Assembly: GCF_018598185.1 (NCBI RefSeq)
Contig: NZ_JAHESC010000020.1
Location: 62,001 to 126,000 of the forward strand
Source: Dawidia soli
GTDB lineage: Bacteria > Bacteroidota > Bacteroidia > Cytophagales > Cyclobacteriaceae
DNA: 64,000 bases
Reading direction: 5' to 3'
Shown here: piece after piece, positions 8,492 to 49,582 of the stretch
Layout of the letters: each line of letters opens with the position of its first letter
How positions within the stretch are numbered: position 1 is the first letter of the stretch
Position numbers and translations under genes: made by a program
The notes under the pieces: model-generated
What the model was told of the DNA's origin: nothing
Database searches by the model: none
What the model saw: only the letters and a program-made list of their open reading frames with translations

Positions 8492-9469
8492 ATGAGCCAG
8501 AACAGACCAATATCGTCGTTTATTGAAAAGAATTTTCTGCATTTTAACGCTGCTGCGTTAGTAGATGCCGCAAAAGGCTACAAGCAACACATTGCCGAAG
8601 GCAAGAAAATGATGGTAACGCTGGCCGGCGCCATGAGTACAGGCGAGCTGGGCATCAGCTTTGCCGAAATGATCCGCCAGAACAAGGTGCACATCATTTC
8701 CTGCACCGGTGCCAACCTCGAAGAGGACATCATGAACCTGGTGGCGCACTCGCACTATAAGCGCATTCCCAACTACCGCGACCTCACCCCTGAGCAGGAG
8801 TGGGGCCTGCTGGAGAACCACCTCAATCGTGTAACCGATACGTGTATTCCAGAAGAGGAAGCGTTCCGCCGTCTGCAAAAGCACCTGTTCCAGGTGTGGA
8901 AAGACGCCGAAGACGCCGGCGAGCGCCTGTTTCCGCACGAGTTTATGTTCCGCATGCTGAACAGCGGCGACCTGAAACAATATTACGAGATCGACCCCAG
9001 GAACTCCTGGATGATCGCAGCGGCCGAGCGCAACATGCCGATGGTCGTGCCGGGCTGGGAAGACTCTACTATGGGCAATATCTTCGCATCGTACGTATTA
9101 ACGGGCGAGCTGAAGGCCAGCACCATGAAGTCCGGTATCGAATACATGGTATGGCTGGCAGACTGGTATACCGAAAACTCCGGCAAGGACGGTATCGGCT
9201 TCTTCCAGATCGGTGGCGGTATTGCCGGTGACTTTCCGATCTGCGTGGTGCCGATGCTGCACCAGGACCTGGAACGCGACAATGTTCCATTTTGGAGCTA
9301 CTTCTGCCAGATCAGCGACTCGACAACCAGCTATGGCTCGTACTCGGGCGCGGTACCCAACGAGAAAATTACGTGGGGCAAGCTGAGCATCGAAACGCCT
9401 AAATTTATTGTTGAATCGGATGCGACCATCGTCGCGCCCCTGATGTTTGCCTACATACTCGAGTGGTAG
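8492..9469 (+). CDS. Deoxyhypusine-synthase-family protein, probable polyamine synthase
   Basis: 325 residues, a full-length DHS-like protein. It has GAMSTGELG near the N-terminus (NAD site), SCTGANLEEDI, the HGFxxP-type FQIGGGIAGDFPI region, and the catalytic lysine in ITWGK at about residue 297, equivalent to the lysine that forms the enzyme-substrate imine. Bacteria lack eIF5A, so the product cannot be deoxyhypusine; characterised bacterial relatives transfer an aminobutyl group to a free diamine, for example making homospermidine. Context beside speA and arginase supports a polyamine role. It is followed by argS after 16 bp, so the two are probably co-transcribed. The exact product is not determined by sequence. 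Confidence 0.85.
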   Translation: MSQNRPISSFIEKNFLHFNAAALVDAAKGYKQHIAEGKKMMVTLAGAMSTGELGISFAEMIRQNKVHIISCTGANLEEDIMNLVAHSHYKRIPNYRDLTPEQEWGLLENHLNRVTDTCIPEEEAFRRLQKHLFQVWKDAEDAGERLFPHEFMFRMLNSGDLKQYYEIDPRNSWMIAAAERNMPMVVPGWEDSTMGNIFASYVLTGELKASTMKSGIEYMVWLADWYTENSGKDGIGFFQIGGGIAGDFPICVVPMLHQDLERDNVPFWSYFCQISDSTTSYGSYSGAVPNEKITWGKLSIETPKFIVESDATIVAPLMFAYILEW

Positions 9470-9485
9470 CACGGGTATCTTTTTT

Positions 9486-11501
9486 ATGAACGTAGATCAG
9501 TCACTTCGCACAGCGGTCAAACAAGCGGCCGAGGCCCTGTTTGGACAACCGCTGGAAACCATACAACTCCAACCCACCAACGCCGAGTTTGAAGGGTCGC
9601 ATACCGTGGTGTGCTTCCCCCTGACCAAACTGTCGCGCAAGGGCCCCGAAGAAACAGCGCGCCTGGTAGGCGACTACCTGGTGCAGCATGCCGGCATTGT
9701 CAGCAAATACAATGTGGTAAAGGGCTTCCTGAATCTTGTCCTGAGCGACCAGGTATGGGTAGATGTACTGCGCGCGATTGTTGCCAACCCGCACTACGGT
9801 CAGCTGCCGGACAACGGGCAGGAGATCATGATCGAATACTCGTCGCCCAATACCAACAAGCCCTTGCACCTCGGCCACCTGCGCAACAACTTCCTGGGCT
9901 GGAGCGTAAGCGAGATTTACAAGAACAACGGCTATACCGTACGTAAAGTACAGATCATCAACGACCGCGGTATCCACATCTGTAAGTCGATGGCTGCCTG
10001 GAAGCTGTATGGCGACGGCGAGACGCCGCAGAGCAGCGGCATGAAGGGCGATCACCTGGTGGGCAAGTACTATGTGCTGTTCGAGTCGCAGTTCCGGAAA
10101 GAGATCGGAGAGTTGATTGATAAGCGCAATGCAGAACAACCTTTCATTGAGGTGATGAGTATTTTCTTCCGTGAAAATCCAACTGCAACTAATTTCGTTT
10201 TCGACTATGAGGGAGACGCGCCGTTCGTTGTAGAGCGTAGCAATACTTCTGTGCAATATGTTGAGTGGGAAGCGCTCAGGAAGATATTAGTGAAAACATT
10301 CGATGATATTTCCAGGCTGGTGCAAGGAAAAAAGAAGGGTGCTTCACTGATGTATGAATGGCTGAAGCCTGTACTGAGCGAGGAAACTATATTTACAAAA
10401 GCGCAAGATATGCTGCGCAAGTGGGAGCAGAAGGACCCCGACACGGTGGCCCTCTGGCAAACCATGAATGGTTGGGTGTACGATGGTTTTGGCGCTACCT
10501 ACGCCCGCATGGGTGTAGATTTTGATAAGTTGTATTACGAATCAGACACCTACCTGCTGGGCCGCGACGAAGTGCTGAGAGGCCTGGAGAAAGGTATATT
10601 CTTTAAGAAGGAAGACGGCTCCGTCTGGGTAGACCTGACAGCCGACGGTCTGGACCAAAAAGTATTGCTGCGTTCCGATGGCACATCGGTATATATGACG
10701 CAGGACATCGGCACGGCCATTTTGCGTTTCCGCGATTTCCCGAAGATCACCGGTCAGGTATATACCGTGGGCAATGAGCAGGAATATCACTTCAAGGTGT
10801 TGTTCCTGATCCTGGGCAAACTGGGCTACGACTGGGCCAAGCGTTGCTTCCACCTTTCCTACGGCATGGTCGACCTGCCTACCGGCAAGATGAAGTCGCG
10901 TGAGGGAACCGTGGTAGATGCCGACGACCTCATGCAGGAAATGTACGAGGAGGCAGAAAAGCAAACCCGTGAGCTGGGCAAGTTAGAAGACATGAGTGGC
11001 GAAGAGGCCAAGCGTCTTTTTAATATGATCGGACTCGGCGCGCTGAAGTTCTTCCTGCTGAAGGTAGATCCCAAAAAACGCATGTTATTTGACCCGCAGG
11101 AGTCGATCCAGCTGCAAGGCTTTACCGGTCCGTTTGTACAGTACACCCACGCACGCATCCGCTCCATCCTTCGCAAGGCCGACAGCATGGGGCTGCGGGT
11201 ATCTGCAGCCGATCTGAATAGTGTGATCGCGCTGGAGCCCGCAGAGCGTGAAGCGCTGCAAGTGTTGAGCATATTTGAAACCAAAGTGCAGGAAGCAGCG
11301 CGGGAATACGCCCCTTCCATCATTGCTAATTATGCCTACGACCTGGCGAAGGAATACAACAAATTCTACCAAAGTGTTCCGATCTTGCCCGAGACAGATG
11401 CAAATAAATTAAAGTTCCGCATTGCCTTGTCCCGGTCTATTGCCGACGCCATAAAGCGTGCCATGTACATGCTGGGTATCGACGTACCCGAGCGGATGTA
11501 A
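9486..11501 (+). CDS. argS: Arginyl-tRNA synthetase with a roughly 90-residue insertion
   Basis: 671 residues from ATG 9486. The frame extends upstream to 9447, but that part overlaps the DHS gene and lacks homology. Class I synthetase: PLHLGHLRNN is the HIGH motif, GKMKSREGT replaces KMSKS, and the C-terminal DALR anticodon-binding domain contains FVQYTHARIRSILRKAD. Typical bacterial ArgS is 550-600 residues. The excess lies at about residues 208-305, between KYYVLFESQFRKEI and AQDMLRKWEQ, where relatives have a short helical linker. The encoding DNA (about 10110-10400) is noticeably AT-richer than the flanks. The enzyme charges tRNA-Arg in the cytoplasm; catalytic motifs are intact, so it should be active. 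Confidence 0.95.
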   Translation: MNVDQSLRTAVKQAAEALFGQPLETIQLQPTNAEFEGSHTVVCFPLTKLSRKGPEETARLVGDYLVQHAGIVSKYNVVKGFLNLVLSDQVWVDVLRAIVANPHYGQLPDNGQEIMIEYSSPNTNKPLHLGHLRNNFLGWSVSEIYKNNGYTVRKVQIINDRGIHICKSMAAWKLYGDGETPQSSGMKGDHLVGKYYVLFESQFRKEIGELIDKRNAEQPFIEVMSIFFRENPTATNFVFDYEGDAPFVVERSNTSVQYVEWEALRKILVKTFDDISRLVQGKKKGASLMYEWLKPVLSEETIFTKAQDMLRKWEQKDPDTVALWQTMNGWVYDGFGATYARMGVDFDKLYYESDTYLLGRDEVLRGLEKGIFFKKEDGSVWVDLTADGLDQKVLLRSDGTSVYMTQDIGTAILRFRDFPKITGQVYTVGNEQEYHFKVLFLILGKLGYDWAKRCFHLSYGMVDLPTGKMKSREGTVVDADDLMQEMYEEAEKQTRELGKLEDMSGEEAKRLFNMIGLGALKFFLLKVDPKKRMLFDPQESIQLQGFTGPFVQYTHARIRSILRKADSMGLRVSAADLNSVIALEPAEREALQVLSIFETKVQEAAREYAPSIIANYAYDLAKEYNKFYQSVPILPETDANKLKFRIALSRSIADAIKRAMYMLGIDVPERM

Positions 11502-11514
11502 GTCGTATCCATTG

Positions 11515-11580
11515 CTGGCGCAAGAGTTAGCGCGCAGCGCGTCTCTTGTGCCTATACTGTCGCCAGTTTGCAACTGGCGG
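11515..11580. repeat. Dispersed hairpin repeat, copy A
   Basis: The outer stem CTGGCGCAAGAG / CTCTTGTGCC is followed by ACTGT and a second stem GCCAGTT-TGC-AACTGGC. It shares CTGGCGCAAG..CTTGTGCC and ACTGT with copies at 26939, 39317 and 42106. It lies between the convergent argS and GH64 genes. Confidence 0.75.
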
Positions 11581-11600: not shown

Positions 11601-11639
11601 AAAAGGCCGTCCTGATATTGCCGGGACGGCCTTTTTTTT
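11601..11639. terminator. Bidirectional intrinsic terminator between argS and the GH64 gene
   Basis: GGCCGTCC (11605-11612) pairs with GGACGGCC (11624-11631), flanked by AAAA on the left and eight T residues on the right, so it can serve both convergent genes. Confidence 0.88.
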
Positions 11640-25494: not shown

Positions 25495-26922
25495 ATGGAA
25501 GTTAGCTGTGGTACAGTATGGAACGATTGTCTGGAAGTCATTCGCGAGAATGTTGGCGAAGAGAATTTCAGCACTTGGTTCAAGCCCATCGTTCCACTTC
25601 GCGTGGAGGGGGATATACTGACCATACAGGTACCTTCGCAGTTCTTCTACGAATGGCTCGAAGAGCACTATGTGCCCGTATTAAAGAAAGCCATACACAC
25701 CGTACTCGGCCCCACCGGCCGCCTCGAATATTCCGTGGTAGTAGACAGCGGTAACAAGCAGGCACCCGCCGTGTCCGTAAACTACCCTGTACACGGTACC
25801 ATCACCAACCGCCGCAGCGGTGTGAACGGCGGCTTTGAAAACAGCGACTATTCACCGTTTACCTTTAAAGCGCTTAACCCGCAAACCGTAAACTCACGGC
25901 TGAACCCAGCCTATACATTCGATAACTTTGTAGAAGGCGACTGTAACCGCCTGGCGCGCTCCGCAGGACTCGCCGTAGCCAAAAAGCCCGGCGTAACCTC
26001 GTTTAACCCGCTCATGCTCTACGGTGGAGTAGGGGTAGGCAAGACCCACCTCGTACAGGCCATCGGCAACGAGATCAAAAACAACATGCCGGGCAAAGTA
26101 GCCCTGTATATCGACCAGAACGATTTCACCACGCAGTTCCTCAACGCCCTGCAAAATCACAAGGTCCAGGAATTTCAGAACTACTACCTGCAGGTAGACC
26201 TCCTCATATTGGACGACGTGCAGTTCCTCGCAGGCCGCGAGAAAACACAGGAGATGTTCTTCCACATCTTCAACCAGCTGCACCAGTCGGGCAAGCAGAT
26301 CATCATGACCAGCGACTGCCCGCCCCGCGACATGAAAGGCTTCCAGGAACGCCTGCTGTCCCGCTTCAAATGGGGACTTACCGCAGACCTGCAAGAGCCC
26401 GATTTCGAAACAAAGCTGGCGATCATCAACCGCAAAATGCTGGCCGACGGCATCCAGATCCCGACAGAAGTGTCGGAGTACCTGGCCTATAGCGTCGACA
26501 CCAACCTGCGCGACATGGAAGGCGTTCTGAACTCGCTCATCTTCCACGCCACCCTGCTCAAAAAAGAGATCGACCTCGACCTGGCCAAAGAGGTGTTAAA
26601 GAATATCATCAAGGAAATACAGTCCGACGTCAGCGTCGACTTCATCCAAAAGACTGTAGCCGAGTACTTTAAAGTCGACCTCGACGCCATGAAAGGCAAA
26701 GTGAAGAAACGCGAGATCGTGATCCCCCGCCAGGTGGCCATGTATTTCTGCAAACGCTTCACCCAGCTCACCCTCGCCCTGATCGGCGAGAACTTTGGCG
26801 GCCGCGACCACAGCACCGTCATCCACGCCCTGGAGTCCGTAGAAGACATGATGAAAACCGACGCCAACTTCCGCGGCTCCGTAGAAGAGCTCGGCAAAAA
26901 ACTGAAGCTCCGCGTAGCATAA
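25495..26922 (+). CDS. dnaA: Chromosomal replication initiator DnaA
   Basis: 475 residues with all four DnaA domains. Domain I: about 1-85 (DCLEVIRENVGEENFSTWF). A variable linker follows. The AAA+ domain spans about 145-350, with Walker A GGVGVGKTHL, Walker B LLILDDVQFL and sensor 1 MTSDCPP. The C-terminal DNA-binding domain ends with the signature GGRDHSTVIHA near 440. It binds DnaA boxes and melts oriC with ATP. Start ATG 25495 gives the standard N-terminus. The gene is monocistronic and is not followed by dnaN, recF or gyrB, unlike the classical arrangement. Immediately downstream are a dispersed hairpin repeat and an array of 11-bp repeats before nuoA. Confidence 0.97.
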   Translation: MEVSCGTVWNDCLEVIRENVGEENFSTWFKPIVPLRVEGDILTIQVPSQFFYEWLEEHYVPVLKKAIHTVLGPTGRLEYSVVVDSGNKQAPAVSVNYPVHGTITNRRSGVNGGFENSDYSPFTFKALNPQTVNSRLNPAYTFDNFVEGDCNRLARSAGLAVAKKPGVTSFNPLMLYGGVGVGKTHLVQAIGNEIKNNMPGKVALYIDQNDFTTQFLNALQNHKVQEFQNYYLQVDLLILDDVQFLAGREKTQEMFFHIFNQLHQSGKQIIMTSDCPPRDMKGFQERLLSRFKWGLTADLQEPDFETKLAIINRKMLADGIQIPTEVSEYLAYSVDTNLRDMEGVLNSLIFHATLLKKEIDLDLAKEVLKNIIKEIQSDVSVDFIQKTVAEYFKVDLDAMKGKVKKREIVIPRQVAMYFCKRFTQLTLALIGENFGGRDHSTVIHALESVEDMMKTDANFRGSVEELGKKLKLRVA

Positions 26923-26938: not shown

Positions 26939-27017
26939 CTGGCGCAAGTGTCTAGCACTAAGCGTCAGCGCGGGTGCGGTCACTTGTGCCTGTTACTGTA
27001 GGCAGTTTGTAACTGCC
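26939..27017. repeat. Dispersed hairpin repeat, copy B
   Basis: Outer stem CTGGCGCAAGTG / CACTTGTGCC, then ACTGT and a second stem GGCAGTT-TGT-AACTGCC. Relative to copy A both stems carry paired base changes that preserve pairing. It lies 16 bp after the dnaA stop. Confidence 0.75.
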
Positions 27018-27047
27018 GTCAAAAGTCCGTTCTCGTTTCAAATGCCC

Positions 27048-27102
27048 ACCTTACGGCGACCTTACAGTGACCTTATAGCTACCTTATAGCGACCTTATAG
27101 CG
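27048..27102. repeat. Five tandem 11-bp repeats after dnaA
   Basis: Consecutive units are ACCTTACGGCG, ACCTTACAGTG, ACCTTATAGCT, ACCTTATAGCG and ACCTTATAGCG, followed by a degenerate ATATTCAGCC. The period of 11 bp is close to one helical turn, so all units face the same side of the DNA, a pattern typical of protein-binding iterons. It lies between dnaA and the nuoA promoter. Confidence 0.85.
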
Positions 27103-27209
27103 ATATTCAGCCATACCAAAGCCATACTTAAAGCAGGGATTAGCCATGGCAACGTTACCCCAAGCCTATCCTTTTGCCGTTTTCTTCCATAGAAATACAC
27201 ATCTTCTCC

Positions 27210-39287: not shown

Positions 39288-39445
39288 GTAGGGGCGTAGC
39301 CCCTACAAACACAAACCTGGCGCAAGTCTTCCGACGGAGGGAGGGCGACTTGTGCCCAGCACTGTTCATGTGCGCAAGGGAGGGGGTCTCCGACCGCCGG
39401 CCGCCCCGCAAATTGTTTTCGAGCCCCACGGGCAACAGCCATCAG
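39288..39445. repeat. Dispersed structured repeat, long copy C
   Basis: It contains three hairpins in order: GTAGGGGC-GTA-GCCCCTAC; CTGGCGCAAGTC / GACTTGTGCC followed by ACTGT; and GGGGGTC-TCC-GACCGCC, then a conserved tail AAATTGTTTTCGAGCCCCAC and CAACAGCCAT. It is closely similar along its length to copy D at 42080. It lies between convergent genes. Confidence 0.85.
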
Positions 39446-42079: not shown

Positions 42080-42235
42080 GATAGGGGCGGAGCTCTACAC
42101 GGGACCTGGCGCAAGTCTTCCGACCGAAGGGAGGGCGACTTGTGCCCAGCACAGTTCGTGCACTCAATGGAGGGGGTCTCCGACCCCCGGCCGCCCGGTA
42201 AATTGTTTTCGAGCCCCACAAGCAACAGCCATTAG
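42080..42235. repeat. Dispersed structured repeat, long copy D
   Basis: Nearly the same as copy C: TAGGGGCGGAGC, stem CTGGCGCAAGTC / GACTTGTGCC, ACAGT in place of ACTGT, then a perfect GGGGGTC-TCC-GACCCCC hairpin and the AAATTGTTTTCGAGCCCCAC tail. It lies between the convergent PRC-barrel and NIPSNAP genes. Confidence 0.85.
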
Positions 42236-49427: not shown

Positions 49428-49548
49428 TTAAACCAATGTTATCCCCCGCAAACCATTTCCCGAGGGAAAACCGGCAGGCCCGTGCAGCCAGCTCGTAAAC
49501 GTTAATAGAAGTTTAATGTGCCGCAGGATGGGTAGGGTAGACGGGAAA

Positions 49549-49582
49549 CGAAAAAAGCCGCCCCAGCGACTGGGACGGCTTC
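49549..49582 (-). terminator. Intrinsic terminator of trxA
   Basis: On the minus strand AAGCCGTCCCAG pairs with CTGGGGCGGCTT (one mismatch or G-T pair), followed by TTTT. It lies about 23 bp after the trxA stop. Confidence 0.85.

Follow-up and report, generated by a model that had tools for sequence, protein, structure and literature searches.

In Escherichia coli, TnpA_REP processes single-stranded REP DNA of one strand only, requires an irregular zone in its substrate and cuts at a CT beside the REP (PMC8266576). The ends of IS200/IS605 elements such as IS608 and ISDra2 are likewise hairpins read as one DNA strand by an HUH-Y1 enzyme (PMC8266576). Some TIRs are double palindromes (PMC3733652). 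In the part of PMC3733652 available to us, Bacteroidetes are mentioned in connection with CGTC repeats only, and these are said to have no dedicated transposase. For the RAYTs of subclass 2.6 (group 5 of Bertels), which occur in Bacteroidetes, the available text of PMC6006769 describes flanking "atypical secondary structures" without GT[AG]G, copies of which are found elsewhere in the genome. The proteins of this subclass are given there as about 179 aa long, with NH[LIV]H, WQ and YIH[QN]NP motifs and about 82 residues between the HuH motif and the Tyr (PMC6006769).

The hairpin repeats described here, from Dawidia soli, resemble each of these systems in part. As in the subclass 2.6 REPtrons of the accessible PMC6006769 text, we find in a member of the Bacteroidota class 2 RAYTs of about 180 aa with HuH, WQ and YIHxNP motifs and atypical flanks that have dispersed copies. 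Going beyond that text, we measure a common plan of the elements and find stem types common to RAYT flanks and dispersed copies. Judging from the available part of PMC8266576, the repeats share with the REPs of E. coli and of Stenotrophomonas and Marinomonas a RAYT in the same genome and a CT beside the element, and with those of E. coli an irregularity in the stem. Recognition of one strand only, in folded single-stranded form, would be a further trait in common. The E. coli REPs, however, have a GTAG foot and an AA-GC bulge in a single hairpin, whereas the foot found here reads CT-NN-C(G.T)C in most cases, and the first hairpin is often followed by a second. Like the GTAG- and CGTC-tagged REPs and the TIRtrons (PMC3733652, in part), the repeats are short intergenic palindromes that can form dimers, and they are linked to RAYTs as the GTAG and TIR types are; unlike those repeats, they carry neither a GTAG nor a CGTC tag at the foot of the first hairpin. 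With the IS200/IS605 elements they share the HUH-Y1 fold of the enzyme, but the motif here is Y---NP instead of Y---Q, and the hairpins are widely spread without the gene. A survey of the open-access literature by title returned no bacterial-repeat paper on the 10-mer of the first stem and none on REP in Chitinophaga.

Hairpin repeats in the window

The window analysed here is a stretch of 64,000 nucleotides, positions 62001-126000 of one contig in a 7.48 Mb draft genome (G000). Exact copies of CTGGCGCAAG occur in it at 11515, 26939, 39317 and 42106 only. Each is followed by a paired CTTGTGCC in the layout CTGGCGCAAG-NN-loop-NN-CTTGTGCC, and pairing of GGCGCAAG with CTTGTGCC leaves a single G.T, the fourth pair counted from the foot. 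The inner NN pairs are AG/CT at 11515, TG/CA at 26939 and TC/GA at both 39317 and 42106. The earlier note on this DNA, which had listed these four sites with common flanking arms and differing but paired NN positions, was thus exact in both positions and pairs.

All four copies lie on the plus strand. The first starts 14 nt past the end of an arginyl-tRNA synthetase-like (argS-like) gene (9447-11501). Its hairpin I (11515..11552) consists of CT and a GGCGCAAGAG/CTCTTGTGCC stem with the G.T as pair 4, and hairpin II (11562..11578, GCCAGTT-TGC-AACTGGC) follows after 9 nt. The second copy starts 17 nt past the end of dnaA (25495-26922). Here hairpin I (26939..26990) has CT and a GGCGCAAGTG/CACTTGTGCC stem, again with the G.T as pair 4, together with an inner stem GCACT/GGTGC, and hairpin II (27001..27017, GGCAGTT-TGT-AACTGCC) is 10 nt away. 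The copies at 39317 and 42106 represent a longer subtype. Both have a GGCGCAAGTC/GACTTGTGCC hairpin I, with loop TTCCGACGGAGGGAGGGC in the former (39317..39356) and TTCCGACCGAAGGGAGGGC in the latter (42106..42146). Their second hairpins are GGGGGTC-TCC-GACCGCC, which is imperfect (39382..39398), and GGGGGTC-TCC-GACCCCC (42172..42188). The longer unit common to these two copies ends at about 39446 and 42236, respectively, and is 88% alike across 112 nt. The covariation of the second stem that had been claimed for the repeats (GCCAGTT/AACTGGC versus GGCAGTT/AACTGCC) is therefore present at 11515 and 26939, but does not extend to 39317 and 42106, where the second hairpin is a different one of the GGGGGTC-TCC-GACCCCC type.

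Folding energies of the copies at 11515 and 26939 were far below those of shuffled sequences (z -4.36 and -4.63; none of 200 shuffles as good), while the 132-133 nt stretches at 39317 (z +1.09) and 42106 (z -1.44) were not clearly stabler than their shuffles. With DNA energies, five copies gave z values of -3.9 to -4.9. Counting the 10-mer with at most one mismatch within the window gave 14 occurrences against a shuffle mean of 6.1, and 3 of 100 shuffles reached as high a count. As this excess is mild, the case for a repeat family rests on the whole genome.

Two further features were noticed beside these copies. Directly after the dnaA copy lies another dispersed repeat, about 115 bp long (window 27040-27171), with 17 more matches in the genome at 79-89%, and next to it are 11-bp tandem repeats (about 27048-27102). 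Just downstream of the first copy, between convergent genes, there is a separate terminator-like hairpin, GGCCGTCC/GGACGGCC with a T-run (11605-11639), so that termination there does not require the repeat.

A dispersed family in the genome

Throughout the genome there are 134 occurrences of CTGGCGCAAG, compared with 13 of the reversed pattern, which served as a control. The gapped hairpin GGCGCAAGN{4,34}CTTGTGCC, which we refer to as the AAG type, is found 57 times against 0 in the control. A related CCGG type is found 35 times against 3; two CCGG-type hairpins are present in the congener G120 and none in five other congeners. A covariance model was built from 15 copies, two of which were those at 11515 and 26939. 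The genome scan scored 150 of 2559 first-look candidates and gave at least 120 matches at E ≤ 0.1, training copies included, a number that is a lower bound. The two training copies in the window scored 88.2 and 67.7 bits with this model, and the copies at 42106 and 39317 scored 32.3 and 30.7 bits, respectively.

We then examined whether letters change in pairs. The alignment to the model comprised 101 matches from 75 loci, of which 99 rows were distinct. Paired cells accounted for 98.2% of 1607, compared with 87.1% in shuffles; two-sided changes were observed in 12 of the 17 pairs (6.4 in shuffles), and double-change cells numbered 176 (45 in shuffles). When one strand was slid against the other, only 32-43% of the cells were paired. 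As the alignment was fitted to the same structure, these values are biased in its favour, but they are far from those of the shuffles and slides. At the fourth pair of hairpin I, the 98 lettered rows had GU in 94 cases, UG in two, G-C in one and no pair in one. These results confirm that the four window copies belong to a large dispersed repeat family in which the fold is kept while the letters change, and demonstrate both the family and its covariation. Instead of a few copies with unpaired changes, the scan returned many copies with paired ones.

Hairpin I lacks the canonical GT[AG]G at its foot, and for this reason the element is not filed as a canonical GTAG REP; of the 82 copies with a hairpin II, 26 have GTRG at the foot of this second hairpin. 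The genome also harbours five hairpins with a GGTTC stem (a count that follows the rules on RAYT flanks and overlaps given below), two of which have the exact loop of the 42106 copy. Relative to that copy, both partners of two adjacent pairs are exchanged in these hairpins, and the wobble has the opposite orientation.

Some copies are composite: in place of the 3' half of hairpin I they have a separate palindrome similar to CCCGATAGCTATCGGG and then GTGCC. These were observed at L005:1501-1588, L022:1501-1582, L085:1699-1796, L089:1565-1667, L096:1513-1592 and L104:1512-1592. In addition, when contig starts were inspected, seven copies were found within 250 bases of one (C50, C51, C65, C70, C92, C93 and C101 of G000), which suggests that longer multi-copy sequences with the element break the assembly.

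RAYT genes and their flanks

The genome has four genes with the Pfam domain Y1_Tnp. Three of them (at loci L033, L032 and L034) scored above the NCBIfam RAYT cut-off (108.8, 101.1 and 101.4 bits versus 80) and below that for IS200 (26-27 versus 55 bits). Their motif is YIHENP (L033) or YIHNNP, and not the Y---Q of IS200 transposases. The proteins are 182-183 aa long, with 83 residues from HuH to Tyr. In an alignment of 24 RAYT rows, H60, H62, W124, Y145, N149 and P150 were invariant; small departures from the published motifs are SHVH in L032 and L034 and the YIHENP of L033. From these motifs, together with length and host, the three proteins would be assigned to subclass 2.6 (group 5).

A search of PDB sequences with a single RAYT sequence gave nothing at E 0.01, and a RAYT profile matched TnpA_REP (4er8). 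The predicted fold of the RAYT from Parachryseolinea silvisoli (72% identical) matched 4er8 and IS200 transposases (Foldseek E 3.9e-6), with a Z of 11.5 for 4er8 and slightly higher values, up to 13.3, for IS608 chains. The model has a mean pLDDT of 73.2, with residues 147-183 below 50.

When the covariance model was run on the neighbourhoods, inverted copies with matching stems were found on both sides of all three RAYT genes. The flanks of L033 are of the AAG stem type, as are the window copies. Those of L032 and L034 are of the CCGG type, GGCGCCGG/CCGGTGCC, with hairpin II GGCGGTC/GACCGCC; one copy at L034 has GGCAGTC/GACTGCC instead. The two subfamilies differ by two stem pairs exchanged on both sides, with the G.T kept. 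This demonstrates the linkage between RAYT genes and the repeats. The earlier note had proposed that the hairpin is selected or copied as a structure, in the manner of REP elements, and had pointed to a covariance scan and to a RAYT gene as places to look; the 120 matches, a pair covariation far above shuffles and three RAYT genes, each between inverted copies of one stem type, bear this out.

Taking into account that the RAYTs have the IS200 Y1 fold, one may ask if the repeats are debris of an IS200/IS605 insertion sequence instead of products of a RAYT system. There is indeed one IS200-like transposase gene, the fourth Y1_Tnp gene (L031, G000:C26:32767-33108), with the motif YIGNQHEHH, which resembles subclass 1.2 as far as the PMC6006769 text at hand describes it. 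No convincing match to the hairpins was present at its locus (best E 0.081, 10.1 bits), and L031 was ruled out as the source of the repeats. With the flanked genes carrying RAYT motifs and scores, we regard an origin from an insertion sequence as extremely improbable.

Orientation and gene context

Among the 120 copies, 33 lie within 300 bp of another, and the remaining 87 are single. The 17 neighbour pairs at this distance comprise 12 that are heads-out (+-), one heads-in (-+) and four in tandem (--). The heads-out order is that of the two ends of a RAYT locus minus the gene, as in REPINs, and inverted two-unit elements are thus present in this genome.

Positions relative to genes were determined with greedy ORF calls, which assigned the 42106 copy to a reading frame that probably does not represent a gene. 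Copies were outside ORFs in 76 of 98 cases, against 260 of 1960 random placements. The contexts of 94 copies were tandem in 52, convergent in 35 and divergent in 7 (127, 70 and 36 for random intergenic positions). In tandem contexts, 28 copies had the element on the coding strand and 9 on the other. For single copies the corresponding numbers were 19 and 4, 20 and 7, and 15 and 8 as the ORF cut-off was raised. We tentatively take the bias as an argument against a purely selfish reading and for a possible RNA effect.

This strand excess bears on the possibility that the hairpins are mainly RNA elements, transcribed in 3'-UTRs where they stabilise or end messages, with the pairs kept for that purpose. 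The proximity of copies to stop codons, as after dnaA and the argS-like gene, would fit, and G.U pairs are allowed in RNA. However, the bias fades under stricter ORF calls, and at 35 of the 94 copies the neighbouring genes converge, so that either strand may be transcribed. T-runs follow only 7 of 100 copies, and a scan with loops of 3-8 nt detected no terminator-like site at the dnaA copy; a role as terminators was rejected on these grounds. The window gave no Rfam match at the gathering threshold. A scan of five element loci gave one match below it, Leu_leader in L036 (27.4 versus 50 bits, E 0.043), which we took as chance. Inverted copies around RAYT genes would also be left unexplained. 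We therefore consider it unlikely that the hairpins act mainly in RNA, and the structured RNA that had been offered as an alternative to REP elements finds little support. On the other hand, the modest coding-strand bias may leave room for a secondary effect at the RNA level.

RAYT loci across the Bacteroidota

We examined 107 RAYT loci, composed of 25 of the 30 loci L112-L141 (L116, L124, L133, L134 and L140 were incomplete and dropped), 80 further loci, and L032 and L034. The 80 were the best of 566 from a scan of named genomes; by title nearly all are from Bacteroidota, with exceptions including Fodinibius, a Chlorobiota MAG and a MAG labelled Thalassovita. At 81 of the 107 loci, the RAYT has homologous hairpins in inverted orientation no more than 350 nt away, and the other 26 loci had no homologous pair. 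Among the controls, such pairs were seen in 2 of 91 flanks taken at a distance of 800-1150 nt and in 1 of 107 shuffled flanks. Some loci seem to be duplicate records, and 78 of the 81 positives remain after removal of identical hairpin pairs.

The 156 flank hairpins of these 78 nonredundant loci were inspected for a single imperfect pair. This was G.T in 96, A.C in 13 and another mismatch in 20, and 27 hairpins were perfect. The pair taken for each locus was the best-scoring homologous one, which is sometimes hairpin II or has a partner read backwards (for example at L034 and L119) and accounts for some of the A.C and perfect counts. The wobble is common, but not universal, among flank hairpins. 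As A.C is G.T seen from the other strand, the irregular pair marks one of the two strands. With the wobble set as pair 4, CT directly precedes pair 1 in 68 of 95 hairpins against a background of 6%; since the position of the wobble is fixed in this test, it is the spacing that is measured. Wobble position, CT spacing and strand asymmetry are thereby demonstrated. A second hairpin was present on the inner side of 47 of 113 hairpins and on the outer side of 11, a count made on hairpins that already had CT and wobble and including a few dubious long ones (L118, L201). The stems themselves vary widely, examples being GGTTCAAG/CTTGGACC, CCCGCAAG/CTTGTGGG, GCGCGGAAG/CTTCCGTGC and GTTTGGAGT/ACTTCAAAC. 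Two RAYT loci, L235 and L272, have one G.T end and one T.G end.

Co-occurrence of gene and repeat

A stricter version of the model scan, which returns 39 matches in G000 instead of 120, was run on 118 genomes of the GTDB family. There were 27 hits outside G000, at least nine of which are no further than 400 nt from one of the RAYT matches listed. Matches to the RAYT protein were present in 91 of the 118 genomes.

The stem type of RAYT flanks was compared with that of dispersed hairpins in eight hand-picked genomes; GGTTC-rich G001, G040, G064, G070, G097 and G114 lie outside this flank set. The hairpin counts include RAYT flanks and some overlapping starts. Five genomes with GGTTC-flanked RAYTs (G085, G050, G053, G043 and G039) had 13, 9, 8, 7 and 6 GGTTC hairpins, respectively, and no exact GGCGC hairpin. 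Conversely, G014, with GGCGC flanks, had 12 GGCGC hairpins and no GGTTC hairpin. The GGCGC side is the weaker one: three of the four copies in G024 and the single copy in G007 are RAYT flanks, and no exact GGCGC hairpin was found in G035, G042 and G061, whose flanks are GGCGC-like but inexact (G061 has one GGTTC hairpin). Both types are present in G000 (57 GGCGC and 5 GGTTC) and in G019 (29 and 3). In view of these cases and of the GGTTC-rich genomes outside the set, we give no weight to a Fisher value calculated for the eight genomes. Ladders of identical hairpins (GGCGCAAGCGTCCGCTTGTGCC and a variant), spaced by about 1.2-2.4 kb, were observed at G019:C123:91-6045 and G014:C27:1109-4826, and are possibly tandem arrays of whole RAYT units; the ladder in G019 surrounds a RAYT match.

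Within the genus, AAG-type hairpins number 57, 32, 8 and 5 in G000, G120, G119 and G121, each of which has a RAYT at least 71% identical to that of L033. The congeners G118, G074 and G122, with distant or fragmentary RAYT matches only, have no exact AAG-type hairpin. Co-occurrence of gene and repeat is thus demonstrated for the genus (4 of 4 with a close RAYT versus 0 of 3 without; Fisher 0.029, with the seven genomes being related and not independent points). In G118 (C46:324552-324987, L280), the RAYT match is in two fragments, and a nearby hairpin has a GTTCAAG/CTTGGAC stem. Decay of the RAYT gene and loss of the repeat may go together in this genome.

The RAYT locus of G120 is identical in every base to that of P. 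silvisoli, a member of the Bacteroidota, which places the genus in Fulvivirgaceae, Cytophagales. Twelve collinear blocks of at least 150 bp connect the window with the part of the G120 genome used for comparison, and the 11 intervening gaps include four in which the window copies are located. A fifth gap (window 49522-49552) is occupied in G120 by two inverted copies in heads-in order and in the window by 31 bases of other sequence. G120 lacks both the 42106 copy and that at the L035 site. At the dnaA site, G120 has an 11-base match, CTGGCGCAAGT, which we read as a remnant of a copy, and no empty site; after the argS-like gene, its copy sits further downstream. At the handful of sites compared, we observed neither an insertion event nor a target duplication.

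A copy directly after dnaA, together with the mostly intergenic placement, would also be expected if hairpins near dnaA and housekeeping genes were regulatory or chromosome-organising sites of the host that the RAYT merely copies or resembles. The sites, however, differ between congeners at the few positions compared with G120, and three congeners have no exact AAG-type hairpin. We hold host sites of this kind to be very unlikely.

Discussion

Taken together, the hairpins are very probably miniature elements of the REP/REPIN type that belong to RAYT/TnpA_REP (HUH-Y1) proteins of subclass 2.6. In this reading, a unit starts with 5'-CT, continues with a hairpin I of about 8-11 bp whose fourth pair is a wobble and, after a linker of about 8-11 nt, often has a hairpin II. 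Two inverted units form the ends of each RAYT locus, or REPtron, and units are otherwise scattered mainly between genes, as single copies or as inverted, mostly heads-out pairs resembling REPINs.

How the elements spread can be suggested by analogy. The system has the same parts as that of E. coli, namely an HUH-Y1 enzyme, a CT at a fixed place and an irregular pair that marks the strand, and from this we infer recognition of a folded strand and cutting at the CT. Only one strand of the unit, folded as single-stranded DNA, would be bound by the RAYT. The stem and the wobble, which is an A.C mismatch on the other strand, would serve as its recognition features. Cutting would take place at the adjacent CT, perhaps during replication, and units would be copied or moved about the genome through this activity. 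Selection would then act on the fold and its irregular pair and not on the letters, which would lead to compensatory changes.

We further raise, tentatively and with a little less than even confidence, the possibility that the recognition signal of subclass 2.6 is a shape at a fixed place rather than a sequence. This shape would consist of CT, three pairs and a wobble or mismatch whose orientation can be flipped (from CGC/GTG to TTC/GGA). The stem letters would drift freely provided that pairing and the irregular pair were kept, and new REP families could arise by compensated drift without loss of the transposase. The loci with mixed ends (L235 and L272) and the G000 copies that have the loop of the 42106 copy but a flipped wobble fit such a signal.

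REP elements are well studied in Proteobacteria. What is added here is a plan for the Bacteroidota element, together with the wobble rule. Reading the repeats as RAYT-dependent REP elements would explain the compensatory changes without invoking a new RNA. The plan of CT, a wobble at pair 4 and, often, a second hairpin can be used as a search rule for a large class of repeats. It would also give a biochemical handle on how a single-strand transposase distinguishes the two strands of a near-perfect palindrome.
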